Assembly: GCF_016623585.1 (NCBI RefSeq) | Contig: NZ_JAEHFY010000015.1 | Location: 1 to 64,000 of the forward strand | Reading direction: 5' to 3' | Length of the DNA: 64,000 nt | From: Pedobacter segetis | GTDB lineage: Bacteria > Bacteroidota > Bacteroidia > Sphingobacteriales > Sphingobacteriaceae | In this document: in pieces, positions 7,150 through 45,539 of the stretch | Layout of the letters: each line of letters opens with the position of its first letter | Position numbering within the stretch: the first letter of the stretch is position 1 | Translations under genes and position numbers: made by a program | Notes under the pieces: model-generated | The model's database searches: none | The model's input: only the letters and a program-made list of their open reading frames with translations | What the model was told of the DNA's origin: nothing

Positions 7150-9432
7150 ATGTTGAAAGAAAATTTTAGTTTAAAAAGAACATTAAAAACTCAGAAAATA
7201 GTTACAGATTTTTTAATTGTGGGAGGGGGGATATCAGGTGTATGTACAGCCATAGTTGCCGCAAGATCCGGCATTAGGGTAGTTTTGGTACAAGATCGTC
7301 CGGTTTTAGGAGGGAATGCATCTAGTGAAGTGAGATTATGGATATTAGGAGCTACCTCCCATATGGGAAACAACAACCGTTGGGCAAGAGAAGGAGGAAT
7401 CATCGACGAAATTTTAGTAGAAAATTTATATCGTAATAGAGAGGGTAATCCACTAATATTTGATACTATTTTACTTGAAAAAATCTATGAAGAAGCAAAT
7501 ATTCAGCTCTTACTAAATACATCGGCATTTGAAGTAAACAAATCAGATGATAAAAATATTAGTAATGTAAAAGCTTTCTGTAGCCAAAATTCTACGATGT
7601 ATGATATCTATGCCAATTTGTTTTGCGACGCCTCGGGAGACGGTGTGATTGCATTTTTAGCGGGTGCATCTTTCAGAATGGGAGCAGAAACCAAACAAGA
7701 GTTTGGAGAAGGATTTGCGCCAGATGTAAAAGATTATGGGGAATTACTCGGTCATTCCATTTATTTCTATACAAAAGATACCGGAGCGCCAATTAAATAT
7801 GTTGCACCAAGTTATGCCAAAAAGGACGTGGGTTCTTTGCCTAGAATTCGTAACTATAAATTACCGGAATATGGCTGTAGATTATGGTGGGTAGAATATG
7901 GCGGTAGGTTAGATACTATCCATCAATCAGAAGATATTAAATTTGAACTTTGGAAAGTAATTTATGGATTATGGGATTACGTAAAAAACAGCGGTAAGTT
8001 TCCAGAAGCAGAAAATCTGACTTTAGAATGGGTAGGTACTATACCTGGTAAAAGAGAAAGTCGGCGTTTTGAAGGAGATTATATACTGGTTCAACAAGAT
8101 ATTGTAGAACAAAAAAGACATGATGACGCTGTTGCATTTGGCGGTTGGGCAATGGATTTACATCCTGCAGACGGGGTCTTTAGTGATAAAAATGGATGCA
8201 CTCAGTGGCATTCTAAAGGGGTTTACCAGATTCCCTACAGATGTTTTTATAGTAAAGACATAGATAATTTATTTTTGGCAGGTAGGATAATTAGTGTCTC
8301 TCATGTCGCTTTTAGTTCAACGCGTGTAATGGCAACCTGCGCTATGGGCGGGCAAGCGGTAGGCCTTGCTGCTTCATTAGCCATAAAATCAAGTTTAAAG
8401 CCTAGAGATTTCTCATCTGGTGAAAACCTTATAAAATTACAACTGGAGCTAAATAAAATAGGTCAAAGTATTCCTTTTGTTCCGTTAGCTGATAGTGATA
8501 ATCTTTTAAACGCTGCAACCCTAGATTCATCATCATCATTGTCATTAGAAGGTTTTCCTGCTGACGGAGAATGGATAGAGCTTGAATTTTCTACTGCACA
8601 GATGTTGCCATTTAAAAAAGGTGAATTGTATACCTTAGAATTTCCATTTAAGGTGCTCAATGATACTACACTTCGTTTCGAATTGAGGACAAGCAGTAAA
8701 ATGCAAAATCATACGCCAGACGTAATGCTTGAAGAACACCTTGTTTTTTTAAATAAAGGTAAAAGGAACGTTAAAATTTCTTTAAAGGAAGTTTTAAAAG
8801 AAGATCAATATGTATTCTTATGTTTTATGAAAAACAATGATCTGCAAGTTAAATGTAGCCAGACTAAAGTTACGGGTATTTTATCGGTATTAAATAAAAC
8901 AAATAAAGCAGTATCAAATTTTGGGCGCCAAGATCCACCAAGTGATATAGGGGTAGATACTTTTGAATTTTGGACACCTTACAGAAGACCCAGATGTCAA
9001 AACTTAGCTTTTAAAATTAGTCCTTCTATTTCTTGTTTTGAGATTCAGAATATAAAAAATGGATTCTTACGCCCGTATGAAAAACCAAATGCTTGGGTTT
9101 CTGCTTTAGATGATGAAAATCCGACTATAAAATTGAATTGGGAACATCAAGTAACTATAAATGAAATTGTGTTGATGTTGGATAATGATTTTGATCATCC
9201 CTTAGAGTCATCATTGTATGGTCATCCCGAGGATGTTTTACCGTTCTGTGTTAGAGATTATAGCTTAAAAAAATGTAAATCGACTGCTGTTTATACAAAA
9301 GAAGATAATTACCAAACCATTAATAAAATAATATTAAGTGAGCCATTAAACACTAAAGAGTTAATATTAGAACTAAAAAGACCCTCAGGGAATGTGCCTG
9401 CGGCGATTTATCAGATTTTAATTTATTCATAA
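7150..9432 (+). CDS. FAD-dependent oxidoreductase (FAD_oxidored type) with C-terminal beta domain
   Basis: 760 aa and no signal peptide, so probably cytoplasmic. Residues 20-45 hold a Rossmann FAD-binding motif (FLIVGGGISGVCTAIVAARSG). GGNASSEVRLWILGA and GKRESRRFEGDYILVQQDI follow the FAD_oxidored (PF12831-like) pattern, and the flavin domain closes near 420 with VMATCAMGGQAVGLAASLA. The last 300 residues look like a beta-rich accessory domain. The substrate is unknown; such enzymes recur in Bacteroidota glycan loci, where oxidation of a sugar or sugar derivative is a plausible role. First gene of the operon, with operator site B upstream; the GH2 gene follows after 20 bases. Confidence 0.75.
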   Translation: MLKENFSLKRTLKTQKIVTDFLIVGGGISGVCTAIVAARSGIRVVLVQDRPVLGGNASSEVRLWILGATSHMGNNNRWAREGGIIDEILVENLYRNREGNPLIFDTILLEKIYEEANIQLLLNTSAFEVNKSDDKNISNVKAFCSQNSTMYDIYANLFCDASGDGVIAFLAGASFRMGAETKQEFGEGFAPDVKDYGELLGHSIYFYTKDTGAPIKYVAPSYAKKDVGSLPRIRNYKLPEYGCRLWWVEYGGRLDTIHQSEDIKFELWKVIYGLWDYVKNSGKFPEAENLTLEWVGTIPGKRESRRFEGDYILVQQDIVEQKRHDDAVAFGGWAMDLHPADGVFSDKNGCTQWHSKGVYQIPYRCFYSKDIDNLFLAGRIISVSHVAFSSTRVMATCAMGGQAVGLAASLAIKSSLKPRDFSSGENLIKLQLELNKIGQSIPFVPLADSDNLLNAATLDSSSSLSLEGFPADGEWIELEFSTAQMLPFKKGELYTLEFPFKVLNDTTLRFELRTSSKMQNHTPDVMLEEHLVFLNKGKRNVKISLKEVLKEDQYVFLCFMKNNDLQVKCSQTKVTGILSVLNKTNKAVSNFGRQDPPSDIGVDTFEFWTPYRRPRCQNLAFKISPSISCFEIQNIKNGFLRPYEKPNAWVSALDDENPTIKLNWEHQVTINEIVLMLDNDFDHPLESSLYGHPEDVLPFCVRDYSLKKCKSTAVYTKEDNYQTINKIILSEPLNTKELILELKRPSGNVPAAIYQILIYS

Positions 9433-9452: not shown

Positions 9453-11999
9453 ATGAGGAAATTTTTAAATATATTTTTATTAATTGTAGTGTTAAAGTGC
9501 AATGTTTATGCCGCTATAGCAGATACCATCTCTTTGAACGGGATGTGGAAATTTAGAACAGATTTATACAAAACTGGAGACGAACAACAATGGTATAAAA
9601 CTAGTTTTGATAAAGCGGGCTGGGATTCAATGGAAGTACCGGGAAATTGGGACTTGCATAATGAATATGCTGATTATAAAGGTGATGCTTGGTATAGTGT
9701 AAAGTTTGATGTCAAAGATGTATGGAGAAATAAAAACGTTAGACTGATATTTCAATCTGTTTATAACGATGCAGAGGTTTGGCTTAATGGGAATAAAATT
9801 GGGGAAAATCATTTTGGCTTTCTACAATTTCAATTTGACCTATCTAATTATCTTATATACGGACAAAAAAATGAAATTGTTGTGAAAGTCAACAACGTTT
9901 TTAAAAGAGGCGCAATCTGGAACTGGGGAGGTATAAGAAGACCAGTTTGGTTAGAAATAACTGACCAGACTAGAATCAACAATCTATCAATTACATCAAA
10001 GCCTGACTTAAAAAAACAAAGTTCAATAGTAAATCTCAATGCAGAAGTCGTAAACTATTCGTCAAATAAAATAGATTTATCCTACGCTGTAGAGCTGTTT
10101 TATAAAAGCAAACGTATTTATTATTCGGGACAGCAAAGAGCTATAACTTTAAAAGGTGCAGACAGTGTGCTTTTAACCCATAACATTCATTTAAACAAAG
10201 CAGATACCCATTTATGGAGCTTTGATTTTCCAAATCTTTATACGGCCAAAATAGCTGTGTATAACAACAAGAAATTACTGCATTTGCAGGAAGATAAGTT
10301 TGGTATAAGAAAGATTGAAGTAGAGGGCTTAAAATTAAAACTTAACGGAAAAGAAATCAGACCTGTGGGTTTTAACCTTGTTCCAGAAGATCGCATCACT
10401 GGAAATACATTACCCTTTGAACATATTAAGAAAATGGTAGATATGATGAAAGAGGCGGGCGCTAATATGGCCAGAATCAGTCATTTATCCTTACCTAAAG
10501 AATTTTTAGATTATTTGGATGAAAAGGGAATTATGACATTTGAAGAGGTTTCTTTATGGGGAAAAGATGTTATGGTAGATCCAGATAACCCTATACCAAA
10601 AATTTGGTTGCAGAAATTAATTCATCAGGAGTATAACCATCCAAGCATTATAGGGTGGAGTGTTGGTAACGAAATAGGTTTGTTAGATAAAAACCCGTTA
10701 GCCAATCAATATATTAAATCAGCGATAGAGAATGCAAAGAAATTAGATCCTAATCGTTTAGCGGTATATATTTCAAATTCTGCTCAGGTGCAACCTGATG
10801 ATGCGGCAATCTATAGTGATATAATCATGCTAAATAGTTATGGGAACTGGGCAAAGGCTGCCGAGAAAGCGCACCATAATTTCCCTGATAAACCCATATT
10901 TTTTTCTGAGTTCGGAGAGAGTTTAAATACAGAAGACCCAAATGATTCTCATTTAGATTTTGGCAAAATGTTAGACAGTTTAAAAGGTAAGGATTATATC
11001 ATTGGTGCTTCGTTATGGACGTTTAATGATTACAGGAGCAGTTACTGGTCTCCAAAAAAATCATGGGAAACTCCTCCTTCACAAAACAGAGCCTGGGGGG
11101 TTGTAAATAGTTTTTTACAGAAAAAAAGAAGCTATTTTGAGGTCCAAAAAGTTTTTCTACCATTAAGCATCACCAACCTTACTGCTACACAACATAATGA
11201 TTATATATTTGGTCAAATAGACTTAAAAATAAATAAAAAGCTTGATTTTCCAGCTTATCAATTAAGCGGTTATAAAATTGCAGTGCAAACGCTTGATAAT
11301 CAAAAAATTATTGATAGTGCAGTTATTAAGCTGCCTATATTAAACCCTGGAGATGGATCCAAAACATTTGAATTCAATATAAAAAATCATCCGTCTTTAT
11401 TAACAGCTATTAAATTTTCATTATCAGACGCACAAAATTTTTCAAGGTTTGATACCCTCATTTATTTAAAAGAACCCCAAAGTGTGCATATTAAAGCTGT
11501 AAATACCAGCGAAAATACAGTAAGAGTTGTTTTTGATCCTAGTTCTTTAGCATCTTATTACACGCTAAAATATGGTAATGGTAAATTGGAGAATGAGAGT
11601 TCGGCAACCATAAATAATTTTATAGAAATAAAAGGCTTAAAAAGTAAAATAAATTATCAGTTTCAAGTAGTTGCCCATAACAACAAGGGAAGTAACGCCT
11701 CAGTTTCTTCAAATTTTATATTAAATGAGGACGAACTGCCACCTATAATCTGGGATGCGGTAGCAGTTAAAAATGGGTTTTTTATATCTTTTTCTTCGGA
11801 CCCATTAGATTATAGATATGAAGTGGAATATGGTACGCAAAAAGGCAACTATTTTAAATGTTTGACTTTTGATAATCACGGTGTACTCCAAATTCCAAAT
11901 TTAGATAGTGATAAAACCTATTTTTTTAGATTGAGAAGATTAATGCAATGGGGATTTGCAAGTACTTGGACTAATGAAATTGAAATAAAACCATTATAG
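9453..11999 (+). CDS. GH2 family exo-glycosidase (beta-galactosidase/glucuronidase-like)
   Basis: 848 aa with a signal peptide ending near NVYAAIA. An N-terminal sugar-binding jelly roll (about 28-170, NGMWKFRTD ... VPGNWDLHNEY) and an Ig-like domain precede a TIM barrel. The catalytic acid/base is E407 (IIGWSVGNEIG) and the nucleophile E486 (IFFSEFGES), both placed as in GH2. The C-terminal 180 residues are Fn3-like (about 680-845). Removal of terminal beta-linked galactose, glucuronic acid or a related residue in the periplasm is the family role; the specific sugar cannot be read from the sequence. Cotranscribed with the FAD oxidoreductase. Confidence 0.85.
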   Translation: MRKFLNIFLLIVVLKCNVYAAIADTISLNGMWKFRTDLYKTGDEQQWYKTSFDKAGWDSMEVPGNWDLHNEYADYKGDAWYSVKFDVKDVWRNKNVRLIFQSVYNDAEVWLNGNKIGENHFGFLQFQFDLSNYLIYGQKNEIVVKVNNVFKRGAIWNWGGIRRPVWLEITDQTRINNLSITSKPDLKKQSSIVNLNAEVVNYSSNKIDLSYAVELFYKSKRIYYSGQQRAITLKGADSVLLTHNIHLNKADTHLWSFDFPNLYTAKIAVYNNKKLLHLQEDKFGIRKIEVEGLKLKLNGKEIRPVGFNLVPEDRITGNTLPFEHIKKMVDMMKEAGANMARISHLSLPKEFLDYLDEKGIMTFEEVSLWGKDVMVDPDNPIPKIWLQKLIHQEYNHPSIIGWSVGNEIGLLDKNPLANQYIKSAIENAKKLDPNRLAVYISNSAQVQPDDAAIYSDIIMLNSYGNWAKAAEKAHHNFPDKPIFFSEFGESLNTEDPNDSHLDFGKMLDSLKGKDYIIGASLWTFNDYRSSYWSPKKSWETPPSQNRAWGVVNSFLQKKRSYFEVQKVFLPLSITNLTATQHNDYIFGQIDLKINKKLDFPAYQLSGYKIAVQTLDNQKIIDSAVIKLPILNPGDGSKTFEFNIKNHPSLLTAIKFSLSDAQNFSRFDTLIYLKEPQSVHIKAVNTSENTVRVVFDPSSLASYYTLKYGNGKLENESSATINNFIEIKGLKSKINYQFQVVAHNNKGSNASVSSNFILNEDELPPIIWDAVAVKNGFFISFSSDPLDYRYEVEYGTQKGNYFKCLTFDNHGVLQIPNLDSDKTYFFRLRRLMQWGFASTWTNEIEIKPL

Positions 12000-12149
12000 C
12001 ATAAATAACTAGTAAACTTTAAAATAAGATTTATTCGATATAAAGATATTTTATATCAAAGAGGTTCTTATGCTGTTTTTTTAACCAAAAAAATAAATAA
12101 AAATTACAGTTAATAAACTAATAACCAATTAATTAAATCAATAAAAATC

Positions 12150-12785
12150 ATGAAAAAAGTATTAATTCAATTCGTATTTTTAATGTGCACAATGTATTGT
12201 TTTGCACAGAAGTCGACTACCGTAATTTCGTGGAACTTTTATGGGCAAACAGCCGGGGCGGCGGATAAATTTGCCCCAACTTCTATAAGTTCAGATTTAT
12301 CATCTGGCGGTATTACCAAAGGTTCAGGCTTAACCATGGGTATGGAAAAATTGAAAAATTATTGGGGTGCTAAAGGGTTTTCTCTTAGCCAAACAGGGCC
12401 TGAAGAAGCAATTTTAAACAATAAATATATAACTTTTTCAATTACCAGTAACTCTTCTAAATCACTATCGCTAAAAGAGATTAAGCCTCTTAAAATAAGA
12501 ATCTTTTCCGTAGGTCCAAATCACTTATTACTTCAATATTCATTTGATGGCAATACTTATAAAGATATCACTACCCTAAAGATGGATAGGCCAGAAAAGC
12601 AATCTGATTTATTGTTAGGAGCTGTTGATCTATCTACAGTAAAAGATCTTCAAAATATAGGTCAGGGTAAAACAGTTTACTTCAGGATAGTTCCTTGGGG
12701 TGCTACTAAAGAAGCCTATAACGACTTTTATTTTGGCTCCCAGTACGATGTGCCATCCATAAGTATTCTAGGAAGTTTTAAATAA
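12150..12785 (+). CDS. Secreted single-domain protein (PUL repeat domain, stand-alone copy)
   Basis: 211 aa: a signal peptide ending at CFAQ, then one complete copy of a roughly 180-residue beta-rich domain present three times in the next gene and twice in the one after. Shared pattern: WNFYGQ, GSGLTMG, NYWGAKGFS, KYITFSITS, LSLKEI, LLLQYSFDG.YKDITT, DLQNIGQGKTVYFRIVPWGA, YFGSQ, ILGSFK. No catalytic residues stand out, so glycan or protein binding is the likely role (inference). It has no T9SS tail, unlike the multidomain relatives. A 150-base gap separates it from the GH2 gene, so it may have its own promoter. Confidence 0.7.
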   Translation: MKKVLIQFVFLMCTMYCFAQKSTTVISWNFYGQTAGAADKFAPTSISSDLSSGGITKGSGLTMGMEKLKNYWGAKGFSLSQTGPEEAILNNKYITFSITSNSSKSLSLKEIKPLKIRIFSVGPNHLLLQYSFDGNTYKDITTLKMDRPEKQSDLLLGAVDLSTVKDLQNIGQGKTVYFRIVPWGATKEAYNDFYFGSQYDVPSISILGSFK

Positions 12786-12836
12786 TTCCTATCGCTTTAA
12801 AAAAACCAAATTATAAACCAATTAAAAATTAATGTT

Positions 12837-15800
12837 ATGAAAAGATTACTACACAATTATAGTTATCGTTTGATGGTAATTATATGTTTGCTATTTCTTT
12901 TAAGTGAAACGCAGGCACAATCTCTAAAGAAAGGAATAGGTATGATTACTACCAAAACCGATGCTAAGTGGATTCAACAGCTCCCACAACTAAATGTAAA
13001 CTGGCATTACAGGTGGGATTTAAGAAAGGACGTTAGAGAGCCTTCTGGAATTGATTATGTGCCTATGGTTTATGGAAGACCTGCTCCTACTACTGCTGAT
13101 TTTGACTATATAAATGACAATAAACAACAATTTAATTATTTGTTGGGTTATAATGAGCCAGATAACCTCCCTGGAACACAAGGCCATATGAGCTTGGATA
13201 GCGCTCTTATGTTTTGGCCTCAGTTAATGGCTTCGGGTTTAACTTTAGGCAGTCCAGCTTCAATAAATCCTTTATCAAAATACATGAAAGATTTTATGAG
13301 GAAAACCGATTCGCTCAATTATCGGGTAGATTTTGTAACAATACATACCTATCCTGGTCCTGATGCCACCGGATTTCTAAAGTTGCTAAGGGACGTACAC
13401 ACAGCGTACAATAAACCTATTTGGATTACTGAATTTGCAGTAGCAGACTGGAATGCTAAAAATGGGATAAAGAATATCTATACACAAGCTCAAGTTTTAG
13501 GCTTCATGAAAACAGTTCTTGAAGCTATGGAAACACCTGAATACAGTTTTGTTCAGCGTTATGCATGGTTTTCTAATTCACCACCTAATGATAAAGCTTT
13601 GGGGAAATCTTCTTTATTTGATTATGACGGGGGATTAACACCATTAGGTCAGTTCTATGCAAACTTTAAGGAAGTGAATACAAAAATACCATTGGTAAAT
13701 CCTTTGATAGCATGGAACGTTTATGGACAATCAGACCCCACACAACAAGGTGTGCCTGCTCAAACATTAAATGCATCAATTTCCAGTACAGGTTTTGAAA
13801 TTGGTACCTTAGCAAATGTGACCATGATGGGTACTAATCATAATTTGTGGGGAGCTTACGGCTGGTCAAAAGATAAAGAAGTTATAGATAGTGCTATCAA
13901 TAGTGGGAAATATATAAAATTTTCTGTGTCACCAAAAGAAGGAAAAGTCTTGTCATTAAAAAAAATTGGGGATTTCAAAATTAAATTGGCAAAAAATGGA
14001 CCTATTTATTACAGATTACAATACCGAATAAATAATGGAACTTATAAAGGACTAACTACATGGTTTGTAAATAGACCTACAGCAACAACAGTTTTTACCT
14101 TGGAGAATTTTGATCTATCCAAAATTCCTGACCTTCAAAATATTGCCTATGGTAAAACAATTGAATTCAGATTGATACCATACAATGCTAATTTAGATAA
14201 TACTTCAGATGGCGCAGTATATTTTGGTAGTGATGCTAATGAGAATTGTTTCGGTCTGGAAGGCAATATTAAATCTTTTACAACTAATAGTTCTTCGGTA
14301 GAATTGGCCTATTGGAACCTAAGCGGACAAACTAACAATGGGGCTAATAACTTAGCGGCGACAAATATTGATGCAGCACTAGCTACAGATGCGGGGTTAG
14401 TTCGTGGAGCAGGAATAGTTGCTGATGTGGTTCCACAGAATAACGTTTGGGGCGGGACCAAATGGCATGTAATGCAAAAAGCGGTGGATGATGCTTCTTT
14501 GATAGATTCCGCAATTAGAGCAAAAAGATATCTGACTTTTAGTTTTAAAGTTCAGGATAATAAAATGGTATCTATAGCAAAGATAAAGCCCATCACTATT
14601 TTTGCAAATAATTCCAGTCCAGATACCATTCTAGTTCAATATGCATTCGATGGAAACAATTTTAAAAATCTGGATACCTTATCCTATACAAGACCAACAT
14701 CAGGCACCAGAGTTGCTCTATTACTTGATAGTATTAATCTGACAGGAAATTCAGAATTTCAAGACATTGCTCCAGGAAGAATCATTAATTTCAGAATGAT
14801 TCCTTATCATGCTGCTAATGGTACTGGTCATTTTTATTTTGGAGATGGTACAACTTCAGGCGTCCATGCACTTTCATTTGTGGGTACGGTGAATTCAATT
14901 ATTCCACCCACAGACGTAATTTTAGCCGCATGGGACACTCAAGGTGCCAATGGCAACAATGCAACTTTAGCGGCAAGCTTGGTAAATGCAAACGTCATAA
15001 GCACAGGTTTGGTACGGAGTGCAAATGTTGTAAATACTACTGATGCAAATGTTTGGGGCGGGAGACAATTTTCAACTGCGACAGATACTGCTACGGTAAA
15101 ATCGCAAAATAAAAACATCAGCTTTACCATTACTCCAAAGGCAGACAAAACAGTTTCATTTACTAGTATAAGTCCTATCGTAATCAGACAAAATAATTAC
15201 GCTCCAAAAAAGCTTTTAATTCAATATGCTATTGGAAATGCACCTTTTGAAGATTTAGATAGCATGTCATTGAGCAGATCAGGGGGTTCTTTCTTTTTGC
15301 AGGACACGCTTGATACCATAGACTTAAGTAAGTTCCCGAAGCTTCAAAATTTAAGTCAGGAGAAATCGGTTACTTTTAAATTGCTTCCTTACGAAGTAAG
15401 AGATGAATCACCAGAATATCAAAAATTCTTAATCGGAGATTTAACAAGTAGTTATGATTTTGTGGTAAAGGGAATAGTAGATGAGGGACCTTTAGGTAAC
15501 CAAATGTCTGCTACAAAAGACATGCAAAATTTTGATTATCAGCATTTAAACACCAACGCTTCTGCTATTTATGTATATCCAAATCCAGTAAAAGATGTAT
15601 TGTATATATCACACTTAGCCAGTACAAGTGAGGGGACTATTAAAATTGTTAATTTAAACGGCCAACTTATTAAGTTACAAAAAACGCCAATTGGATCTCA
15701 ATTAACACGTTTAGATGTAAGTGATTTACAGACAGGTTTTTATATTGTAATTTATCAAGGTAGTAAGGGTCAACAGTCGGTTAAATTCATTAAACAATAA
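12837..15800 (+). CDS. GH128 endo-beta-1,3-glucanase with three repeat domains and T9SS tail
   Basis: 987 aa. After the signal peptide (to about 28), residues 30-285 match the GH128 catalytic core (Glyco_hydro_cc): VPMVYGRPAPT, LLGYNEPDNLPG with catalytic E107, GSPAS, VDFVTIHTYPG and WITEFAVADW with nucleophile E199, then RYAWFS and LTPLGQFYANF. Three copies of the repeat domain follow (about 290-480, 488-690, 695-880), then a type A T9SS sorting domain (about 907-987, IYVYPNPVKD ... KFIKQ). GH128 enzymes cut beta-1,3-glucan internally; here the enzyme should be at the cell surface or released. A shorter paralogue follows 2 bases downstream. Confidence 0.85.
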   Translation: MKRLLHNYSYRLMVIICLLFLLSETQAQSLKKGIGMITTKTDAKWIQQLPQLNVNWHYRWDLRKDVREPSGIDYVPMVYGRPAPTTADFDYINDNKQQFNYLLGYNEPDNLPGTQGHMSLDSALMFWPQLMASGLTLGSPASINPLSKYMKDFMRKTDSLNYRVDFVTIHTYPGPDATGFLKLLRDVHTAYNKPIWITEFAVADWNAKNGIKNIYTQAQVLGFMKTVLEAMETPEYSFVQRYAWFSNSPPNDKALGKSSLFDYDGGLTPLGQFYANFKEVNTKIPLVNPLIAWNVYGQSDPTQQGVPAQTLNASISSTGFEIGTLANVTMMGTNHNLWGAYGWSKDKEVIDSAINSGKYIKFSVSPKEGKVLSLKKIGDFKIKLAKNGPIYYRLQYRINNGTYKGLTTWFVNRPTATTVFTLENFDLSKIPDLQNIAYGKTIEFRLIPYNANLDNTSDGAVYFGSDANENCFGLEGNIKSFTTNSSSVELAYWNLSGQTNNGANNLAATNIDAALATDAGLVRGAGIVADVVPQNNVWGGTKWHVMQKAVDDASLIDSAIRAKRYLTFSFKVQDNKMVSIAKIKPITIFANNSSPDTILVQYAFDGNNFKNLDTLSYTRPTSGTRVALLLDSINLTGNSEFQDIAPGRIINFRMIPYHAANGTGHFYFGDGTTSGVHALSFVGTVNSIIPPTDVILAAWDTQGANGNNATLAASLVNANVISTGLVRSANVVNTTDANVWGGRQFSTATDTATVKSQNKNISFTITPKADKTVSFTSISPIVIRQNNYAPKKLLIQYAIGNAPFEDLDSMSLSRSGGSFFLQDTLDTIDLSKFPKLQNLSQEKSVTFKLLPYEVRDESPEYQKFLIGDLTSSYDFVVKGIVDEGPLGNQMSATKDMQNFDYQHLNTNASAIYVYPNPVKDVLYISHLASTSEGTIKIVNLNGQLIKLQKTPIGSQLTRLDVSDLQTGFYIVIYQGSKGQQSVKFIKQ

Positions 15801-15802
15801 TA

Positions 15803-18415
15803 ATGGAAAATATCACTGAATTTAGGTGGTATAATAGGATACTTAAACTTGTTTTAAGTATCCTATTTATGCTTAGTTTTAATTTGTCAAATGCACAATC
15901 TAGCAAAAAAGGGGTGTGCATGATAACTACAAGGACAGATGGAAAATGGATTTATCAAATCCAACAGTTAAATGCTAAATCTCATTACAGATGGGATCTT
16001 AAACTAGATCCTAACGAACCTGAAGGCATTCCCTATGTCCCAATGATTGTGGGAAGACCGGCTCCGACTCAAGCAGACTTTGATTATTTGAACACTAATA
16101 AATCCAGCTTTACCCATCTATTGGGTTATAATGAGCCAGATGCCCCTCCAGGAAAACAAGGCCACATGAGTGTGGATAGTGCCTTGATGTTCTGGCCAAA
16201 ATTAATGGAAAATGGGCTGATTTTGGGTAGTCCTGCAGGTACAAATGCACTGGGTAGCTGGATGAAACAGTTTATGACCTCGGTACAACAGAAGAATTAT
16301 AGGGTCGATTTTGTTCCCATACATTGGTATGGGCCTCCAAGTGTTAGTACTTTTTTAAATCATGTAAAAGCTGTTCATAATGAGTACCATAAACCGGTAT
16401 GGATTACTGAATTTTCACCTGCAGATGGTGATTCAGATAAAGCTGCAGGAATAGTAAATAAGTACACAGAAGCTCAATCATTCAGCTTCATGAAAGCGGT
16501 TTTAGATAGTCTTGAAAATCCTAATTATTCATTTGTACAGCGGTATTTTTGGTTTTCTAATTCACCACCTGATGATTGGTCTTTAGGGCGTTCCTCCTTA
16601 TATGATTATGACGGCGCATTAACTCCTATTGGGCAATACTATTCTAATTTTAAAGAAATAAATACTAAAACGCCTACAGTTAACCCATTGGTTGCTTGGA
16701 ATGTATTTAATCAAAGTCAGTCTGGTTTACAAGGGTTAGCACCCAAAACATTAAACTCATCTTTAGAAAGTGTTGGTTTTACTAAGGGCAACGGCATCAC
16801 CATGCTCACTGCAAATAATAATTTATGGGGCGCAACAGGTTGGTCGCTTGATAAAACTAAAATCAATACTGCTATAGCAGATAGTCAGTTTGTAGAATTC
16901 AGCATTAGTCCTAAGCAGGGCAAAGTACTTTCTTTAAGCAAAATTGGTGATTTTAAAATTATAATATCTTCCACAGGCCCTATTTACTACAGACTGCAAT
17001 ATGCTATTAATGAAGGTGAGTATAAAGGAATTACTACCTGGTCTGTTAATAGGCCGTCAACCACTACAGTTTTTCAATTGGAGAATATCGACCTTTCTTT
17101 TCTGCCAGATTTGCAGAATATTCCTTACGGAAAAACAATTAAATTTAGGCTAATTCCTTATAATGCAACATCATCTGCCGGGCAGTTTTATTTTGGAAAT
17201 CGTTTAGACGAAAACTGTTTAGCTATTGAAGGAAATATTAAGTCTTTTGAATCTTCTGGAACAACAACAGCAGTAGATTTAGCTTCGTGGAACTTTAAGG
17301 ATGAGGTACTTAATGGCCGTCAGAATATGTTGCCTACCTTGTTAAATTCAGCACTCGTTGCAACCGGTTTAACTAAAGGTTCGGGCATTAAGACTGATGA
17401 AATCACCTATTCAAAAGTTTGGGGCGGAAGAGCCTGGCATACCTCTGCATCAAAACCAGGTTTTTCAATTATTGATTCTGCTGTAAGAAATAGGAAATAT
17501 TTAACCTTTAGTTTTCAAACACAGGCAGATAAATTGGTTTCATTTACAGAAATTAACCCTTTTATTGCTATGATTTCTAGGCTTGGACCTGATGAATACA
17601 CCATTCAATACGCTTTAAATAGCGATTATAAAGACATTGCCACTTTAACAATTCCGTTAGTGCGTACAGCAGGTACAGCTACAAAGGCTTTTACCTTTCC
17701 TAATGTAGACCTTTCGGGTATATCAGAACTTCAAAATATAGCCCCTGGGAGAAGTATAAACTTCCGAATCGTTCCTTATGGTGCTACAGACGCTAGTTAC
17801 GGACAGTTTTATTTAGGAGATAACCTGTCTAATGGAATTTCATTTGGTTTTAAAGGCTTTGTCAGCACATTATTGCCTGTTAAGCTTTCCTCTTTTTCTG
17901 CCAAAAGAAGAAATGAATTTGTTGATATCCAATGGACAACTTCTTCAGAAATGAATTTTAACCATTTTATTTTAGAAAGAAAACAGGGTAGTGGTGATTT
18001 TGAAGAAATTTACCGGGCAAATTCTTCTGGATTCTCCACGGGAGGTAAATATAGCTTTACAGATGAGTTTAAATCTTTTGATACACAATACTACCGTCTT
18101 AAAATGGTGGATAATGACGGAACCATAGTTTATAGTTATATCATCGCTCAGCAACCGATAGTTGGTGCTGAAGATCAATCCATAAGTTTATATCCTAATC
18201 CTGCAATTTCAGAAGTTACCGTTTCTTATCCGCCTGCAACCGCTAATAGTTTGTTGAGAATATATGGGACAGATGGGAAGCTATATGCTGAATATCCGCT
18301 TTTAAAAGAGAGTATCTTTAAAAAAGTTGATGTTTCCAACTTAAAAAGTGGCTACTATATAGTTATTTATAATAATTCGTCTACATCAAAAAGCTTAAAA
18401 TTTATAAAAAACTAA
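15803..18415 (+). CDS. GH128 endo-beta-1,3-glucanase paralogue with two repeat domains and T9SS tail
   Basis: 870 aa. The signal sequence is long (cleavage near NAQS, about residue 33). The GH128 core shares KKGVCMITTRTDGKWI, VGRPAPT, LLGYNEPDAPPG (E111) and WITEFSPADG (E203) with the upstream gene. Two copies of the repeat domain follow (about 296-487 and 491-690), then an LPVKLSSFSAKR Ig-like stalk and a type A sorting domain (ISLYPNPA ... SLKFIKN). The stalk is a common T9SS linker not present in the paralogue. Start and stop are tightly packed with both neighbours, TAATG linking it to the GH43 gene. A recent duplicate specialised for a related linkage or branch pattern is likely (inference). 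Confidence 0.85.
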   Translation: MENITEFRWYNRILKLVLSILFMLSFNLSNAQSSKKGVCMITTRTDGKWIYQIQQLNAKSHYRWDLKLDPNEPEGIPYVPMIVGRPAPTQADFDYLNTNKSSFTHLLGYNEPDAPPGKQGHMSVDSALMFWPKLMENGLILGSPAGTNALGSWMKQFMTSVQQKNYRVDFVPIHWYGPPSVSTFLNHVKAVHNEYHKPVWITEFSPADGDSDKAAGIVNKYTEAQSFSFMKAVLDSLENPNYSFVQRYFWFSNSPPDDWSLGRSSLYDYDGALTPIGQYYSNFKEINTKTPTVNPLVAWNVFNQSQSGLQGLAPKTLNSSLESVGFTKGNGITMLTANNNLWGATGWSLDKTKINTAIADSQFVEFSISPKQGKVLSLSKIGDFKIIISSTGPIYYRLQYAINEGEYKGITTWSVNRPSTTTVFQLENIDLSFLPDLQNIPYGKTIKFRLIPYNATSSAGQFYFGNRLDENCLAIEGNIKSFESSGTTTAVDLASWNFKDEVLNGRQNMLPTLLNSALVATGLTKGSGIKTDEITYSKVWGGRAWHTSASKPGFSIIDSAVRNRKYLTFSFQTQADKLVSFTEINPFIAMISRLGPDEYTIQYALNSDYKDIATLTIPLVRTAGTATKAFTFPNVDLSGISELQNIAPGRSINFRIVPYGATDASYGQFYLGDNLSNGISFGFKGFVSTLLPVKLSSFSAKRRNEFVDIQWTTSSEMNFNHFILERKQGSGDFEEIYRANSSGFSTGGKYSFTDEFKSFDTQYYRLKMVDNDGTIVYSYIIAQQPIVGAEDQSISLYPNPAISEVTVSYPPATANSLLRIYGTDGKLYAEYPLLKESIFKKVDVSNLKSGYYIVIYNNSSTSKSLKFIKN

Positions 18416-19479
18416 TGTTAAAAAAAGTCAGTTATATCTTTTATATCGGTTTAATAGTATTATTCACGAATGCCTGTAAAACTTTGGCACAATCAAATAA
18501 AAACGCTGAAGTAAAAAGTAAACAATTCAAGCCTGGTTTGCCATGGCTAGATAACCATGGGATTCCTATTAATGCACATGGAGGAGGCGTTATTTTTTAT
18601 AATGGAATTTACTATTGGTATGGGGAGCATAAATTGCCCGGCAAATCTGAATTAGAAATGGCAGATGGTGGTATACATTGCTATTCCTCTAAAGACTTAT
18701 TGAATTGGAAAGATGAAGGCCTGGTTTTATCTGTAAAATACGATGATAGTAAAAGCGATATTGCTTATGGATGTATTTTAGAACGTCCGAAAGTTATTTA
18801 TAATAGTCAGACAAAAAAGTTCAATGCATTTTTTAAACTTTATCCGAAAGGAACAGGCTATTTGAAAGGTTATATAGGTGTTGCTACAGCTGATAAGCCA
18901 AACGGACCTTTTATCTATCAGCATAAATTTTTAGGTGCCGATTCTGATTTTGGTTCCGGGGATTTTGCCATGTTTAAAGATCAAGATAATACCGTGTACC
19001 ATTTTACTGTAAGAAAGCCAGATAAAACTTTTGTAATTGGCAAACTCGAGGACGATTATTTGTTTGCCCGATCTAAAAGTTACTTCTTAGCTAAAGGGAT
19101 AGAGCCACATACAGAAGCGCCAGCGCTAATTTCACGTAATGGAAAATATTATTTAATAGGTTCTGGTTCTAGCAGTTGGGACCCAAACGCTGCCCGGTCT
19201 TTTGTGGCTGATTCTGTTAATGGTTTGTATACTGATACAGGAAATCCTACTTCGGGGATTAACCCATATAATAATTTGGGTGCAGAAAAAACTTTTGGAG
19301 GTCAGATATCATATATCATTCCAGTTCAAGGAAAAAAAGATGCGTATATAGCCATGTTTGATGTTTGGAAACCTAATGAACCCATTAATGGACTATATAT
19401 CTGGTTGCCGTTGACTTTCAAAGATGGTAAACCAGAGATTGTTTGGAAAGATAAATGGGATTTATCATTTTTTAAATAA
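18415..19479 (+). CDS. GH43 family glycosidase, exo-beta-1,3-galactanase-like (lipoprotein)
   Basis: 354 aa lipoprotein (LFTNAC, Cys about 21). Five-bladed propeller pattern: INAHGGGVIFYNGIYYWYGE, HCYSSKDLLNWKDEG, LERPKVIYN, FNAFFKLYP, GSGDFAMFKD, HTEAPALISRNGKYYLIGSG. The AHGGG.....YYWYGE opening in place of the usual R-D-P with base Asp is typical of GH43 subfamily 24 and relatives, known for exo-beta-1,3-galactanases with an altered catalytic base. Subfamily is a recognition call made without alignment. Overlaps both neighbouring genes by one base, so it is translationally coupled. Confidence 0.75.
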   Translation: MLKKVSYIFYIGLIVLFTNACKTLAQSNKNAEVKSKQFKPGLPWLDNHGIPINAHGGGVIFYNGIYYWYGEHKLPGKSELEMADGGIHCYSSKDLLNWKDEGLVLSVKYDDSKSDIAYGCILERPKVIYNSQTKKFNAFFKLYPKGTGYLKGYIGVATADKPNGPFIYQHKFLGADSDFGSGDFAMFKDQDNTVYHFTVRKPDKTFVIGKLEDDYLFARSKSYFLAKGIEPHTEAPALISRNGKYYLIGSGSSSWDPNAARSFVADSVNGLYTDTGNPTSGINPYNNLGAEKTFGGQISYIIPVQGKKDAYIAMFDVWKPNEPINGLYIWLPLTFKDGKPEIVWKDKWDLSFFK

Positions 19480-20282
19480 TGATGCAAATAAAAACAATAA
19501 TTAGCTGTCTGTTTTTCCTTATGATGTTGCAGGGTTGTTCAAAGAGGACTTTAAAGCAAAAGGAAAGTAAAATTAATACTATAGTACATTCTAAGTATAT
19601 ACCAGTTGGATATCAATTAGAATTTAATGATGAATTTGATCAGCTTGTTCTCGATTTAAAAAAATGGAAATATAGACTTGGTGTGAAGAGCGGTGGTGGT
19701 TATGCTTCTAAAGAAATAGAAGAAAATGTGTATTTGGCAGATGGGAAATTAATAGTTAGAGGTGTATATAAAGATCCAAAAGCAGAAGGCTCTAATTCTG
19801 GTGGAGGGGTAATTTCTATACCTCATTTCAAGTATGGTTATTATGAAGCTCGCGTAAAAACTCAAAGTGGTGCTTTTTGGCATTCATCCTTCTGGACCTA
19901 TAATACAAAAGACACCAAAAAAGCAACAGAAATAGATATTTTTGAACGTGATTCCCAGTATGACATTCCAGATGGAATTGTTAAAATCCGCCAAAACGTA
20001 ATTCAGCATTCCTCTGGCAAACCAATTACTTTAAAGGGAAGCATAAAACTTCCTTTAGAGTTTGACCCATCAAAAGATTACCATATATACGGGATGCTTT
20101 GGGAAGAAAGCTCAGTCAAGTTTTATGTAGATGGAGTGTTAACCAATACCATTTCTTATCCTGAAGATAAATATTTGCATGATGAAACGGCTATTTTTCT
20201 ATCTATGATTGCAAGAAATACAGCAGCAGAAAATACAGCATGCTACTTTGATTACGTCAGATTTTATTCAAAAAGCAATTAA
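19479..20282 (+). CDS. GH16 family endo-glycosidase (lipoprotein)
   Basis: 267 aa, lipoprotein signal (MMLQGC, Cys 20). Jelly-roll GH16 features: LEFNDEFDQ near the N-terminus, KYGYYEARVKTQSG, and the catalytic ExDxxE as EIDIFE (E151 nucleophile, D153, E156 acid/base), then YGMLWEESSVKFYVDG. The family covers laminarinases, agarases, porphyranases and galactanases; the GH128 neighbours favour a beta-1,3-linked substrate, but this is not decided by sequence. Translation is coupled to the GH43 gene; ATG at 19479 or 19482 are both possible. Confidence 0.82.
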   Translation: MMQIKTIISCLFFLMMLQGCSKRTLKQKESKINTIVHSKYIPVGYQLEFNDEFDQLVLDLKKWKYRLGVKSGGGYASKEIEENVYLADGKLIVRGVYKDPKAEGSNSGGGVISIPHFKYGYYEARVKTQSGAFWHSSFWTYNTKDTKKATEIDIFERDSQYDIPDGIVKIRQNVIQHSSGKPITLKGSIKLPLEFDPSKDYHIYGMLWEESSVKFYVDGVLTNTISYPEDKYLHDETAIFLSMIARNTAAENTACYFDYVRFYSKSN

Positions 20283-20320: not shown

Positions 20321-22859
20321 ATGTCATTTATAAAAACGAGCATTAAAAATAGGTATGTGTTTTTTCGAAAATTTAGAAATATCCCTTTTTTAAAATCTTT
20401 AAGATTCATATACATTGCAGCATTACTTATTGCTTGTAATACTCCAAAGATGGCAGTAATAAAAACAAATAAACCATCTTTTAGCGGTATTTATTCCCAT
20501 TTAGCTTATTATAACAATGAAGGCGAATGTGGCACAGGTGCTGTTGTGCCGTTGGGCTAATAGGTTATGGGTTATAAGTTATGGTCCGCACAAACCCTTC
20601 GGTTCTTCTGATAAGCTTTATGAGATAGCCAATGATTTAAAACAAATTGTAAGAGAAGAAAGTGTAGGAGGAACCTCTGCAAATCGCATGATTCATAGAG
20701 AATCTATGCAACTAAACATTGGCCCATATTTTATAGACACAAATAGAAACGTTCGTGTTTTAAATCCAAAAGAAGTGCCAGGTAGATTTACCGGTACGGC
20801 TCGTCATTTAACCAATCCTTCAGAAAAATTATACATAGCCACTATGGAAGAAGGTTTTTATGAAGTTGATGTAAATTCTTTAAAAACAAACACCTTATAT
20901 GAAGACGGGAACATTCTTAAGGAAAGAAACAAAACTAAAGACTTTAGTGAATTGTTACCGGGAGCTCATGGTAAAGGTTTATATTCTGGTCAGGGAGTAA
21001 TGGTTTACTCTAATAATGGAGATGCTGATGCAAAAGCTTACAGCCAGTTTGACATACCATCAGGGGTTTTAGCAGAATGGAACGGTAAAGATTGGAAGGT
21101 AATTAGAAGAAATCAGTTTGTTGAGGTAACTGGTCCGGGTGGTATTTATGGAAACAAGCATCCAGAAATCGATCCGATTTGGGCCACAGGATGGGATAAT
21201 AAGTCTATTTTACTGGGTGTACGAGATTATAAAAAAGGCTGGTCTTTTTTCCGATTACCTAAAGCCAGCCATAGTTATGACGGCGCACATGGCTGGAATA
21301 CAGAATGGCCAAGAATCCGAGATGTTGGTACATCTAAAAAACCTGATTATTTAATGACTATGCATGGAATGTTTTGGACTTTTCCTGGTAATTTTTCATC
21401 AAATTTAAGCGCTGGAATAAGGCCTCAATCTGCTTATTTAAAAGTAATTGGTGATTTTACCCGCTGGCAGAATCAATTAGTTTTCGGTTGCGATGATGCC
21501 GCAAAAAACGAATTCTTAAATAAAAGAAAAATTAAAGGAATTACTACCGGTCCAGGCCAGTCTAATTCTAATCTCTGGTTTACTTCTTTAGATCAAACCC
21601 AAAAATTGGGACCAAATACAGCAGAAGGCGCAATTTGGTTAAAAGAAAATGTAGAAGCCAATAAACCTTCAGAACCTTTTTTGTTTGCCGGTTGGGAAAA
21701 CAGAAATACTTGGGTTTTAAATGAAGGAAATGAGTCAGTTACTTTGAAAATTGAAGTTGATATTAATGGAGACAATAACTGGGAGCTTTTACAAACTTTA
21801 AAAGCAGAGCCTGGGAAAGCGATAAATATACTTTTTGAGGCTAAGCAAAAAGGAGAATGGATAAGGGCTATTTCAGATAAAGCATCTATACTGACATTCC
21901 ATTTGTCCTATACAGACTTGAGTAGATTTAATAATAAAATATCATCCATTTTTAATGGAATTGAAACTGTAGCGAATAGTAATTATAAGGCAGGTCTGTT
22001 ATATAGTTTAGGTGATAATCGCAGAATTTTAGGTGTTCTATCAGGAGAGATTACAAAAGATGTTTTCAAAGAAAATGGTTATTATGAGCTAAATGAGCAA
22101 ATGCAACTGGTGAGAAAGGATGATACTAAAACAGCAGATTTCATCAGAGATAAATTTACTTTTCCTAAAAATAATTTTTCTGTCGAAGAATCTTCAATTT
22201 TAATAGTTGACGATAAAAATAGACGCTGGAGATTACCGTTAGGTGAAAGTACTTTTACAGATTTAACAAAAAACGGCTTAAGCAGGGTCTGCCGCGAAGT
22301 TTCTACTGAGAGAGATTTGATGAATTTGCAAGGTACATTTTATGAACTACCTGCGGAAAATGCAGATGGTTTCGCTAAAATAAGACCGATAACTTCTCAC
22401 AATCTTGCAATATATGATTATGCTTCTTATAGAGGGATGCTGGTACTAACAGGTATTAAAAACATTTCAAAAAATGCCGAGCATATCATTACTTCAAACG
22501 ATGGAAAAGCCAAAGTTTGGGTAGGCGCAATAGATGATTTATGGCAGTTGGGTAAGCCTATGGGTCATGGTGGTCCATGGAAAGATAGCCAAGTAACTAA
22601 AAATATTCCCTCTGATCCTTATTTGATAGGTTTTTATGATAAGAGAAGTGTATCTATTTCACACCATTCAGATAAAGTTGTGAAATTTAAAATAGAAGTG
22701 GAGCCAATTGGACATGGTCCTTGGATGTTATACAAAGAAGTAGAAGTTCAACCAGGTAAAACTTTTAATTATACATTCCCTGATGGTTTTCAAGCTCGAT
22801 GGATAAGATTTGTTTCATGTGATGATTGTAAAGCAACGGCTTGGCTTAATTACGAATAA
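20321..22859 (+). pseudogene. Large lipoprotein of unknown function, split by a frameshift
   Basis: Two overlapping frames form one gene. The first (20321-20560) gives a lipoprotein signal (ALLIAC, Cys about 39) and ends in ECGTGAVVPLG; the second resumes as WANRLWVISYGPHKPFGSSD. Removing one T at 20552-20553 yields an uninterrupted VPWANRLWVISYGPH, so the original protein was about 845 aa. It is a beta-rich, propeller-like sequence with two copies of a C-terminal-type module (EPFLFAGWENRNTWVLN near 21680 and DPYLIGFYDKRSVSISH near 22615). No catalytic motif is recognised. It closes the first PUL operon, 38 bases after GH16. The second frame alone would lack a signal peptide. Confidence 0.7.
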
Positions 22860-23376: not shown

Positions 23377-26300
23377 ATGAAGCAATTTTATAAAAGAAGT
23401 TTGTTTATCTTATTTAGTATGGTATTCTGCCATTTAACATGTGATGCACAAGTTGTTAGTATAAGAGGTGTAATTAGAGAAGAAGCCAGTGGCGAAACTA
23501 TTCCTGGGGCTTCAATTAGGGTTAAAGACGGGAAAATTACAACAATTTCAGATATTGATGGTAAATTTAATTTAAATGGGTTGAAACCTAGTGACGCTTT
23601 GATTATTACTTATATAGGATATTCTGACAAGACGGTACCCATCTCTCAAGCTAAAAACGGGGTTCTCAATATTTCACTTAGTATCAGTTCAACACGATTA
23701 GAGGAAGTAGTTGTTAATGTAGGATATGGACAGCAAAGAAAAAGTGAGCTTACTGGTTCAATTGGGATAATAGGAGCAGATCAGATGGATAAATTTTCTG
23801 GGGGATCAGTAATTACAAGTTTACAAGGTAAAATTGCTGGTTTGCAGGTAACTACTATTTCCGGGGAGCCAGGAGCGGGCGCAAGTATCACGTTGAGGGG
23901 TTTGTCTTCTATTAACGGCGCCAGTGAGCCTTTAATTATCATTGACGGCGTCCCGGTAAATAACGATCCTTATACAGCACCGATTGATAACGCGGGCTTT
24001 AGCCCTTTAAATGATTTAAATCCTTCGGATATAGAATCTATTGAGGTGCTCAAGGATGCTGCATCTGCTTCAATTTATGGTTCTAGAGCATCAAATGGGG
24101 TGATATTGATAACCACTAAAAGAGGTGTTTCTACTAAAGCGCAGTTCAATGTTTCGTTGAACAGTAGCATGGTGAATATCACCCGTACGATCGGGGTACT
24201 CAACGGACCGGAGTTCAGGTCCGCCTATACCGACGCGATAGTCAACGCGACGGGGAACTATACCACCCAGATCCCGTTGATCGATTCCTTACATCCCTAT
24301 TACCGTAATTCTATCGACTGGCAGAACCTCGCCTACCAGAACACCTTACAGTACAAGGCCGATCTGAGCGTGAGCGGTGCATCGGTAGATAAGAGTATGG
24401 ATTATTATATCAGCGGAAGCTATAGAAATCTGAACCCGGTGGTAGTTGGAACTAATTATACGCAGGCCAGTGGATCGGCAAAGGTTAACTACAAACTAAA
24501 TAAAACAATATCAGGATCATCCAACCTAAACGTAAGTAACAATAATTATTCAAGGCAAAACTCAAATATAATAGGTACTTATATTAGGCTGTTTCCCGTG
24601 TATAATCCTTATGATCCATATACTGGAGATCTGGTGGTTACCTATCCTGGCGGAAGATTGAACCCGCTAGCGGTGGCAGAGTATTCCACAAACGATATCG
24701 ACAGGACAAGATACCTGCTGACGCAGAACCTGAGTTTTAAAATCACAAAAGGCTTAGAGTTTAAAACCAAAGCGTCTTACGATTATAGTTTTACGGAGTC
24801 ACAGTATAATGTTCCTCCAAAACTGCTGGTTGGGAGCAATTCTGCCCCGGGAGGAAGTTATAGTCCTTCCAAGAACACTTCATTTGTTAATGAGAATACG
24901 TTAAATTATACAAAAACAATTAATAAAAATCACAACATCAACTTGCTTTTGGGGGAATCCTATCAGGAATTCGATACAAAATATCTTTATTTATATGGTA
25001 TAAATCCTATAGATAACACCATAACAACAGTGGGTGGTTATACTACACTTTCAAGTTTTAGCCAAACAGAATCTCAATATGCATTGGCTTCACTTTTTGG
25101 AAGAGCAAACTATAACTATAAGTACAAATATATATTTTCAGGTGTTTTAAGGGCTGATGCTTCTTCTCGGTTTGGTAGTAATAATAGAACTGCTTATTTT
25201 CCATCTATATCGGGTGCTTGGCGTTTTACTAAAGAAAATTATTTTAAGAACAAATCAAAATGGCTATCTGATGGAAAATTGAGAGTTGGTTATGGAATAA
25301 CTGGTAACCAAAATATCGGAAATTATTCAAGTCAGGGAATATATGCAAAGGCGGGTACTTATGGGCTTGACTACGGTATAACGAATACCACTTTACCTAA
25401 TAAGGATTTGAAATGGGAGAGGACAAAGCAGTTTGATACTGGCGTTGATTTGAGTTTTCTGGAATCAAGGATTAACCTTACTGCTGATTTCTATATTAAA
25501 AACTCTTATGACTTGTTGTTCAACGTTCAAATACCATCACAAACCGGCTATGGCAGTATCCCCTATAATTTTGGTAGCCTAACAAATAAAGGGATTGACC
25601 TAGAATTATCCGGTATTATTTTAGATAAGGCTTTAAGCTGGAAATCCACTTTCACATTTGGTTTAAACAGGAACAAAGTCACCTCGCTGCCTAATAATGA
25701 GGATTATAACCCAAATGGATATAGTTTGGCTAGAGTAGGACAACCTGTTGGCGTTTTTTATGGATACCGATCATTGGGTGTATATGCAAAAGATGCAGAT
25801 AATGTTTATAAAACAAATCCTGATGGAAGTGTGATACCTTATCGCAAAGGTTCTAGTAACGGTCCAATCTATAAAGGAGGAGATTCTATTTTCCAAGATG
25901 TAAACGGAGATGGAATTATCGGTCTGGAAGACCAGCAGATCATAGGAGACCCGACTCCTGATTTTTTTGGTGGCTTTCAAAATACTTTTAATTATAAAAA
26001 CTTCAATTTTAGTTTTTTCATCAATTATGTAGTAGGTAATGATATTTATAACAAATTGAGAAAAGATACGGATGGTGGGATATATGATACCAATTATACT
26101 ACCGACGTTTTAAGAAGATGGAGGCAACAAGGAGATGTAACAGATGTTCCAAAATTAGTTAAGGGTGATCCTATGGAAAACAATGCAATCTCAACCCATT
26201 TTATCGAAGACGGCTCGTTCATCAGGCTTCAAAACATCTCTTTAAGTTATAAACTGCCATCAAAAACAATAAAGAAATTTGGCTTCAGTGCAATAAACTT

Positions 26301-26454: not shown

Positions 26455-26457
26455 GAC

Positions 26458-45146: not shown

Positions 45147-45539
45147 ATGGAAAATGAGAAAAAACAAAGTAGAGACCATTGGTTGCATTTAAGACTGACC
45201 GAGAAGGAAAAACTACAGATTCATAAGTCATTTTTAAAAACTACCCAAAGAAAATTAAGCGACTACGCCAGAAAGATATTGCTAGGCAAACCAATGATCG
45301 CAAGTTACAGAAATGCCTCTATAGATGACCTGATGAACGAGCTCATAAAACTTAGAAAGGATTTGAACGGTCTGGCGAATAACTTCAATCAAACTGTCCA
45401 CAAGCTCCATACTTTGGATCACGGACTGTCTTTAGAGAGCCTGCTAAAGCACTACGAAAAAGAGCGTAAAATCCTGTTTGAAAAAGTGGAGGAGATGCGG
45501 AAAATGACAAACAAACTCGGGGCGGAATGGTTGCGGTAA
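45147..45539 (+). CDS. mobA: MobA-like mobilization accessory protein
   Basis: The open frame runs from a TTG at 45063 across the candidate oriT; the ATG at 45147, behind an AAGGAAAAGAGAG binding site, is preferred (130 aa, MENEKKQSRDHWLHLRLTEK). It is a basic protein with ribbon-helix-helix-like features (LRLTEKEKLQIHKSFLKT, KLSDYARKILLGKP) and a C-terminal helical coil with the mobilization-type segment IDDLMNELIKLRKDLNGLAN, the pattern of the relaxosome accessory MobA of Bacteroidetes. It overlaps the relaxase gene by 13 bases. Confidence 0.82.
   Translation: MENEKKQSRDHWLHLRLTEKEKLQIHKSFLKTTQRKLSDYARKILLGKPMIASYRNASIDDLMNELIKLRKDLNGLANNFNQTVHKLHTLDHGLSLESLLKHYEKERKILFEKVEEMRKMTNKLGAEWLR

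Follow-up and report, generated by a model that had tools for sequence, protein, structure and literature searches.

The window analysed here, a stretch of 64,000 nucleotides from Pedobacter segetis (contig NZ_JAEHFY010000015.1, positions 1 to 64,000 of the forward strand), holds three adjacent genes that together encode six copies of one module of about 190 residues, one copy in a stand-alone protein and three plus two in a pair of proteins with cores of glycoside hydrolase family 128 (GH128). We think it fairly likely that the six copies represent a single unnamed galactose-binding-like module that most likely acts as a carbohydrate-binding module (CBM) in this locus; that it binds sugar, and which sugar, we infer. 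The copies are homologous, have a predicted fold and an ordered architecture, and keep their positions between two species. The module genes and the copies within them are as follows.

12150 to 12785, plus strand: stand-alone protein of 211 residues, with a signal peptide (recognised by inspection) followed by copy A1, and without a type IX secretion system (T9SS) tail
12210 to 12782, plus strand: module copy A1, the sole copy of the stand-alone protein, placed by pairwise alignment
12837 to 15800, plus strand: GH128-type protein of 987 residues, comprising three copies of the module as well as a T9SS sorting domain (PF11790, E 1.2e-43; PF18962, E 3.4e-14)
13695 to 14282, plus strand: module copy B1, immediately C-terminal to the GH128 core
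14289 to 14900, plus strand: module copy B2, which pairs with C2 in the tree (SH-aLRT 92)
14907 to 15515, plus strand: module copy B3, the most divergent, on a long end branch (1.37)
15803 to 18415, plus strand: GH128-type protein of 870 residues, comprising two copies of the module as well as a T9SS sorting domain (PF11790, E 1.5e-42; PF18962, E 8.4e-08)
16673 to 17260, plus strand: module copy C1, immediately C-terminal to the GH128 core, identical to B1 at 120 of 190 aligned residues
17264 to 17872, plus strand: module copy C2, placed by pairwise alignment

The three genes, all on the plus strand, are separated by gaps of 51 and 2 nucleotides, and a promoter and terminator scan of positions 11900 to 13000 gave nothing on that strand. 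Elsewhere the genome has a seventh copy, less closely related to these six (G000:C3:144871-145434). In all 15 pairs of the six copies identity is 30-63%, and the local alignment scores of 179-632 far exceed the maxima of 48-66 from 200 shuffles per pair (z 24 to 108), which rules out chance similarity and bears out the claim of a preliminary description of this DNA that one domain occurs six times in three consecutive genes. The sequence blocks by which that description had recognised the copies are less uniform than it implied, being present in exact form in only one to four of the six (WNxxGQ in 3/6, GxGxxMG in 1/6, DLQNIxxGKTxxFRxxPxxA in 3/6, YFG in 4/6), and B3 and C2 carry none of the four exactly. 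Its outline of a stand-alone secreted copy and three plus two copies behind GH128 cores stands as far as the architecture and the signal peptide go. The T9SS sorting domain PF18962 exceeds its cut-off in both long GH128-type proteins, but the stand-alone protein has no such tail, so that "exported" is a safer word than "secreted", and on these sequence features the protein may be periplasmic.

As to the identity of the module, 40 single copies were compared with Pfam and NCBIfam by hmmscan. The best Pfam match was Flo11, in 7 of the 40 (best E 0.0011), while the best NCBIfam match had an E value of 0.027. Since these matches are weak, the module is one without a curated name in those libraries, in agreement with the preliminary description, which had not recognised the family and had proposed this search. 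No paper on the module was found in literature searches, which left most subscription papers uncovered.

The nearest known family by sequence is, weakly, the F5/8 type C domain (PF00754, CBM32), which shares with the module the β-sandwich fold class and a weak similarity around the strand with YSxDGxxF. This raises the question whether the copies are no family of their own but merely F5/8 type C domains that have diverged, an account that we consider improbable. PF00754 was matched by 6 of the 40 copies at E values up to 1 (best E 0.0021). It was also matched (E up to 0.001) by 7 of 81 whole carrier proteins, the 81 being what remained of 89 distinct carriers after the eight longest were left out; the match lay inside the module in five of the seven (L030, L047, L037, L019, L049:9460) and outside it in two (L033, L054:4027). 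One protein with three copies reaches 30.1 bits as a whole, above the curated cut-off of 28.2 bits, yet no single stretch of it passes, and none of the 40 copies reaches that cut-off, the best E value corresponding by estimate to under 20 bits. The stand-alone copy of the window has no PF00754 match at E up to 1. A profile-profile comparison with PF00754 gave an E value of 5.7e-4, better than three column-shuffled controls, but at a probability of 29.5% and over 22 columns rather than most of the domain; for the F5/8 type C profile, one of 18 loci had been dropped and one row shortened (short loci, probably contig ends). Furthermore, PF00754 has 127 model positions where the module has about 190, and the structural comparison described next gave a query template modelling (TM) score of only 0.23-0.30 to the CBM32 chains listed.

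Structure prediction, another check that the preliminary description had proposed, yielded a confident β-sandwich of a fold used by many CBMs: the AlphaFold2 model of 12210-12782, built on a 40-row alignment, has a predicted local distance difference test score (pLDDT) of 95.5 and a predicted TM score (pTM) of 0.91. Among the 50 Foldseek matches listed to solved structures, the best E value was 4.1e-4 and the query TM nowhere exceeds 0.41, so none is close, and CBM29, CBM32, CBM4 and CBM28 (E 4e-4 to 1.1e-3) are mixed with APC10/DOC. VIA-align gave Z scores of 9.6 for the carbohydrate-binding domain of a pectate lyase, 9.3 for CBM22, 9.2 for CBM15, 8.8 for CBM29 and for a CBM35 enzyme, and 8.6 for CBM6, with CBM28, CBM27 and CBM4 also among the matches. 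The solved structures of CBM22, CBM15, CBM29, CBM35 and CBM4 share the jelly-roll arrangement (Z 8.4-9.3, root-mean-square deviation 3.0-3.8 over 121-146 residues), but at a sequence identity of 5-16%, and none is clear of the rest. Absence of a family from these lists does not exclude that family. Because CBMs and non-sugar binders are mixed at the top and no single family stands out, the fold class is best described as a galactose-binding-like jelly roll; the top solved matches are ones that we take to belong to the galactose-binding-domain-like class, and the predicted model, at moderate scores, is consistent with membership of the module in that superfamily.

The closest structural match overall is a predicted protein of an uncultured Caudovirales phage (BFVD A0A6J5PST9; E 1.4e-07, query TM 0.67 over 195 columns), which is uncharacterised and only 15% identical to the module. 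A mobile or phage origin of the module found no support in limited searches: one P. arcticus copy had no sequence match among 50,697 phage records, the module alignment (A3) had none in viral contigs, and the 211-residue protein had none in plasmids (tblastn, E 1e-5).

The enzymatic context provides the next line of evidence. Both cores are GH128 members, scoring 149.9 and 146.3 bits with PF11790 (cut-off 21). The closest solved GH128 core is 6uaq, presumably AmGH128_I of subgroup I; its NEPD and WLTEY align with NEPD and WITEF of the first window core, motifs that both window cores have in common, and the catalytic glutamates are, we assume, those of the NEPD and TE motifs. Copies B1 to B3 and C1 to C2 thus are discrete non-catalytic domains contiguous with a carbohydrate-active enzyme, one of the two marks of a CBM, the other being demonstrated carbohydrate binding. 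Among 21 related genomes there are 13 PF11790 matches, three of them fused to the module. The ten others lack it (best 3.2 bits), but two of them have a CBM over the cut-off, CBM_35 in L113 and CBM_4_9 in L122; in L117 and L119 these families stay below it. The tools disagree in places: one scan placed CBM_4_9 over the cut-off in the 711-residue GH128 protein of a second Pedobacter species (G089), for which hmmscan does not list it, and CBM_6 in the GH128 protein of G080 is over the cut-off by one scan and just under it by hmmscan. A scan of viral contigs for further GH128 sequences found none. A model of GH128 plus C1, intended for a comparison of domain packing with a solved GH128-CBM6 enzyme, came out at a mean pLDDT of 67.4 and a pTM of 0.50, and of its first 27 ten-residue blocks 20 scored below 60; the likely cause is that the alignment could draw on no more than two GH128 sequences, and the model is uninformative about packing.

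The GH128-CBM6 enzyme CBM6E of Saccharophagus degradans, whose structures we take to be PDB 8j3x and 8j3y, has a core nearest to subgroup II chains, whereas the window core is nearest to 6uaq. It resembles the window proteins in that a β-sandwich module follows the GH128 core, and it acts on β-1,3-glucan, as GH128 enzymes are known to do; it differs in having a single CBM6 instead of two or three unnamed copies (PMC10956234), and the CBM6 profile match of the module is near noise. That paper states that both modules of this enzyme recognise curdlan (PMC10956234). Given the CBMs in the corresponding slot of other GH128 proteins and this curdlan-recognising enzyme, we judge glycan capture beside the GH128 core to be the most likely role.

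The copies have also kept their places during evolution. In G089 the cassette runs in the same order, from the FAD oxidoreductase through GH2, the stand-alone copy, an extra module protein of 400 residues, GH128 with two copies and GH43 to GH16; the proteins are 42-78% identical to those of the window, and a single GH128-type gene stands in place of the window's two. A quick tree was built from 118 copies (no bootstrap; copies covering fewer than 140 model positions dropped). In it, the first copies after GH128 (B1, C1 and that of G089) cluster together, as do the stand-alone copies (A1 and that of G089), each with SH-aLRT 100. Together with the shared gene order, this position-specific grouping indicates that the copies kept separate identities across the two species. 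When nine copies of this GH128-linked clade were compared with 108 others (one G089 copy falling in neither group), several residues were kept in the clade and rare elsewhere (occurrences among the 108 in brackets): G34 (5), W52 (3; mostly F or Y elsewhere), G53 (6), Q109 (11) and P162 (1). Y174 is present in 8/9 as against 3/108. These residues are candidates for a clade-specific site. Arg R159 of the module model, by contrast, is found in 108/108 of the other copies and in 8/9 of the clade, and sets the family as a whole apart from F5/8 type C.

Outside this clade the module is widespread. A 25-row profile detected it in 25/121 of the family's genomes at an E limit of 1e-4 and, across the phylum, in 33/296 sampled genomes at a limit of 1e-6, although some low-scoring, partial matches in both surveys may be other galactose-binding-like domains. 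A scan of genome contigs gave ten loci, eight in Pedobacter or Sphingobacterium (five species) and two in Verrucomicrobia at 24-25% identity, and a Verrucomicrobia protein is also among the carriers. Of the 18 matches in P. arcticus A12, a member of the same genus as the window genome, 17 fall in a stretch of about 58 kb on a single contig. In this region (L009-L011), module copies lie beside BNR_2 proteins, two SusC/SusD pairs and apparent sugar-catabolism genes. Among the families listed (25 at most), the census of the 81 carriers counted T9SS tails in 26, DUF5689 in 8, BNR_2, PLD-like and F5/8 type C domains in 7 each, GH128 and PEP-CTERM in 3 each, and a SASA esterase, an endonuclease/exonuclease/phosphatase, a lamin tail and a β-helix in one each. 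With GH128 in just 3/81, the module is not tied to β-1,3-glucanases, and the idea of a module exclusive to such enzymes was discarded.

Could the module then serve exported Bacteroidota proteins as a general-purpose adhesion or spacer domain, placing catalytic domains or binding other proteins, without any sugar specificity of its own? The scarcity of GH128 among the carriers and the variety of their other domains speak for this, as do the lamin-tail and nuclease-type fusions and the fact that the fold is common to protein-protein modules such as APC10/DOC and EphA2. We nevertheless regard it as unlikely, if worth keeping in view: the stand-alone copies of the window, P. arcticus and G089 have nothing to space, several carriers lie in SusC/SusD loci, and the clade-specific residues of the GH128-linked copies hint at a surface under selection, unless their role is structural.

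Some of the same fusions suggest instead that what the module captures varies with the locus, and that nucleic acid or other phosphodiesters may be among the polymers, sugar binding being just one of its uses. Six PLD-like proteins from as many genomes (L012, L026, L027, L028, L029 and L033) carry two or three module copies each; each of the six also has a weak T9SS-tail match below the Pfam cut-off. An endonuclease/exonuclease/phosphatase is fused to three copies in L049:3195-6977 and to one in L054:4027-6132, and both loci also hold SusC, SusD and a DUF5689-module protein. When a P. arcticus SusD was used as query, it was matched in 7/14 listed loci, and in 7/7 the gene that follows encodes a DUF5689 protein with the module; two of the loci appear to be from one genome (Pedobacter sp. 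BS3). A DUF5689 protein of Riemerella is listed as essential for natural transformation, and its binding of DNA is a proposal of the authors (PMC8459023). This binding is thus speculation on their side. The neighbours in the window are, moreover, GH2, GH43, GH16, SusC/SusD, carbohydrate esterases and one FAD oxidoreductase, and we find this multi-polymer account quite unlikely.

A CBM in the window locus remains our preferred reading, but several observations weigh against it. Galactose-binding-like jelly rolls include many CBMs and also non-sugar binders; Reelin, IFT25, BcsB and EphA2 score as high as CBMs in VIA-align, and a fold shared with these and with APC10/DOC is by itself no proof of sugar binding. 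The profiles of CBM_6 (PF03422; probability 0.8% vs 0.0-0.1% in three shuffles) and CBM_4_9 (PF02018; 0.4% vs 0.0-0.3%) are both unmatched by the 40 copies and lie so near the shuffled controls that a plain module of either family is ruled out. Five of the ten other GH128 proteins (L111, L116, L120, L121 and L123) show no CBM by hmmscan, and L114 has a weak CBM13-like match alone. The module is fused to PLD-like, endonuclease/exonuclease/phosphatase and lamin-tail proteins. The group of the six window copies and four G089 copies has a modest SH-aLRT support of 86. The 7/7 count after SusD is biased, since every locus had been preselected for the module and one of these loci supplied the query; the window gene after SusD (28011-29534) encodes a CBM96 and a cadherin-like domain, and that after the second SusD of P. 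arcticus a DUF5017 protein, both without the module. The suggestion in the preliminary description that the position behind a β-1,3-glucanase points to a glycan-binding module therefore holds in part. It is favoured by the CBM-type fold, by CBMs in the GH128 slot in 2/10 and by the place after SusD in seven loci, and weakened by the 3/81 carriers with GH128, by the non-sugar binders of this fold and by the neighbouring GH43, which hints equally at β-1,3-galactan.

The last point concerns the ligand, for which the other genes of the locus are informative.

7150 to 9432, plus strand: FAD-dependent oxidoreductase (PF12831), first gene of the cassette; G089 counterpart 76% identical
9453 to 11999, plus strand: GH2 enzyme, upstream in the cassette (PF02836, PF02837 and PF00703 over cut-off); G089 counterpart 61% identical
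18415 to 19479, plus strand: GH43 enzyme, subfamily-24-like (exo-β-1,3-galactanase type), best solved relatives 6eug and 7bys; G089 counterpart 78% identical
19479 to 20282, plus strand: GH16 enzyme (PF00722, E 1.6e-18); G089 counterpart 69% identical
23377 to 28002, plus strand: SusC-like transporter and SusD-like protein, downstream of the cassette

The nearest solved relatives of the window GH43 include BT3683 (6eug/6eui) and Pc1,3Gal43A (7bys), exo-β-1,3-galactanases of subfamily 24, a subfamily to which, according to PMC8406133, only such enzymes belong. Its YGE, ERPK, EAP, SWDP and GGQ stretches align with their 7bys counterparts, as judged from the residues listed for Pc1,3Gal43A in PMC7939473 (Glu57, Glu102, Arg103, Glu208, Trp229 and Gln263), numbers being matched to letters by reading the alignment. 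By sequence, the window GH43 thus looks like an exo-β-1,3-galactanase. Pc1,3Gal43A also carries a CBM35, and PMC7939473 indicates that its jelly-roll CBM can bind β-1,3-galactan. However, that CBM sits on the GH43 itself, whereas the window GH43 has no second Pfam domain and the modules are on GH128. The window GH16 matches unspecified GH16, κ-carrageenase, "cellulase" and laminarinase chains (E 1e-12 to 1e-9), and GH2 matches 5t98 best, followed by candidate β-glycosidase, β-galactosidase and β-glucuronidase entries. These relatives make β-1,3-galactan or arabinogalactan as plausible a target as laminarin or curdlan, and the ligand would accordingly be a β-1,3-glucan or a β-1,3-galactan.

Around these genes, the polysaccharide utilisation locus contains further proteins that are possibly unnamed enzymes, two without a Pfam match at E 0.01 (20517-22859 and 29614-31056) and one with a T9SS tail and DUF3244 alone (31082-33157). 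A DUF6266 protein (6128-6766) is encoded in the reverse orientation shortly before the cassette begins. Beyond the locus, an IS110-type transposase (43802-44800), a MobA/VirD2 relaxase (45527-46786) and a type IV secretion system coupling protein (46802-48721) suggest a mobile element beside the sugar locus.

Under the CBM reading, the tandem copies on the two T9SS-exported GH128-type enzymes would hold a β-1,3-linked polysaccharide at the cell surface, by the active site, and the stand-alone copy would hold that chain too or pass it on, possibly within the periplasm. A bolder proposal, possible though on balance doubtful, is that the module is an undescribed capture module of SusC/SusD loci that is used phylum-wide for polymers of differing chemistry, among them β-1,3-glucan or galactan, the substrates of sialidase-type proteins and perhaps nucleic acid. 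Its GH128-linked clade would then be a new CBM family with its own site around W52, Q109, P162 and Y174, possibly for β-1,3-galactan. If this clade does bind β-1,3-galactan, these GH128-type cores would act on galactan.

The module is a real, unnamed family within a known fold class, and probably a CBM in the window locus, with wider use elsewhere. The Bacteroidota are known for polysaccharide degradation, and an unnamed module in 33/296 genomes of such a phylum is a gap in module classification. If β-1,3-linked chains are indeed bound, the module would constitute a new CBM family, for which the 211-residue protein offers a means of testing, and proteins after SusD that are now annotated by DUFs alone could be better described.

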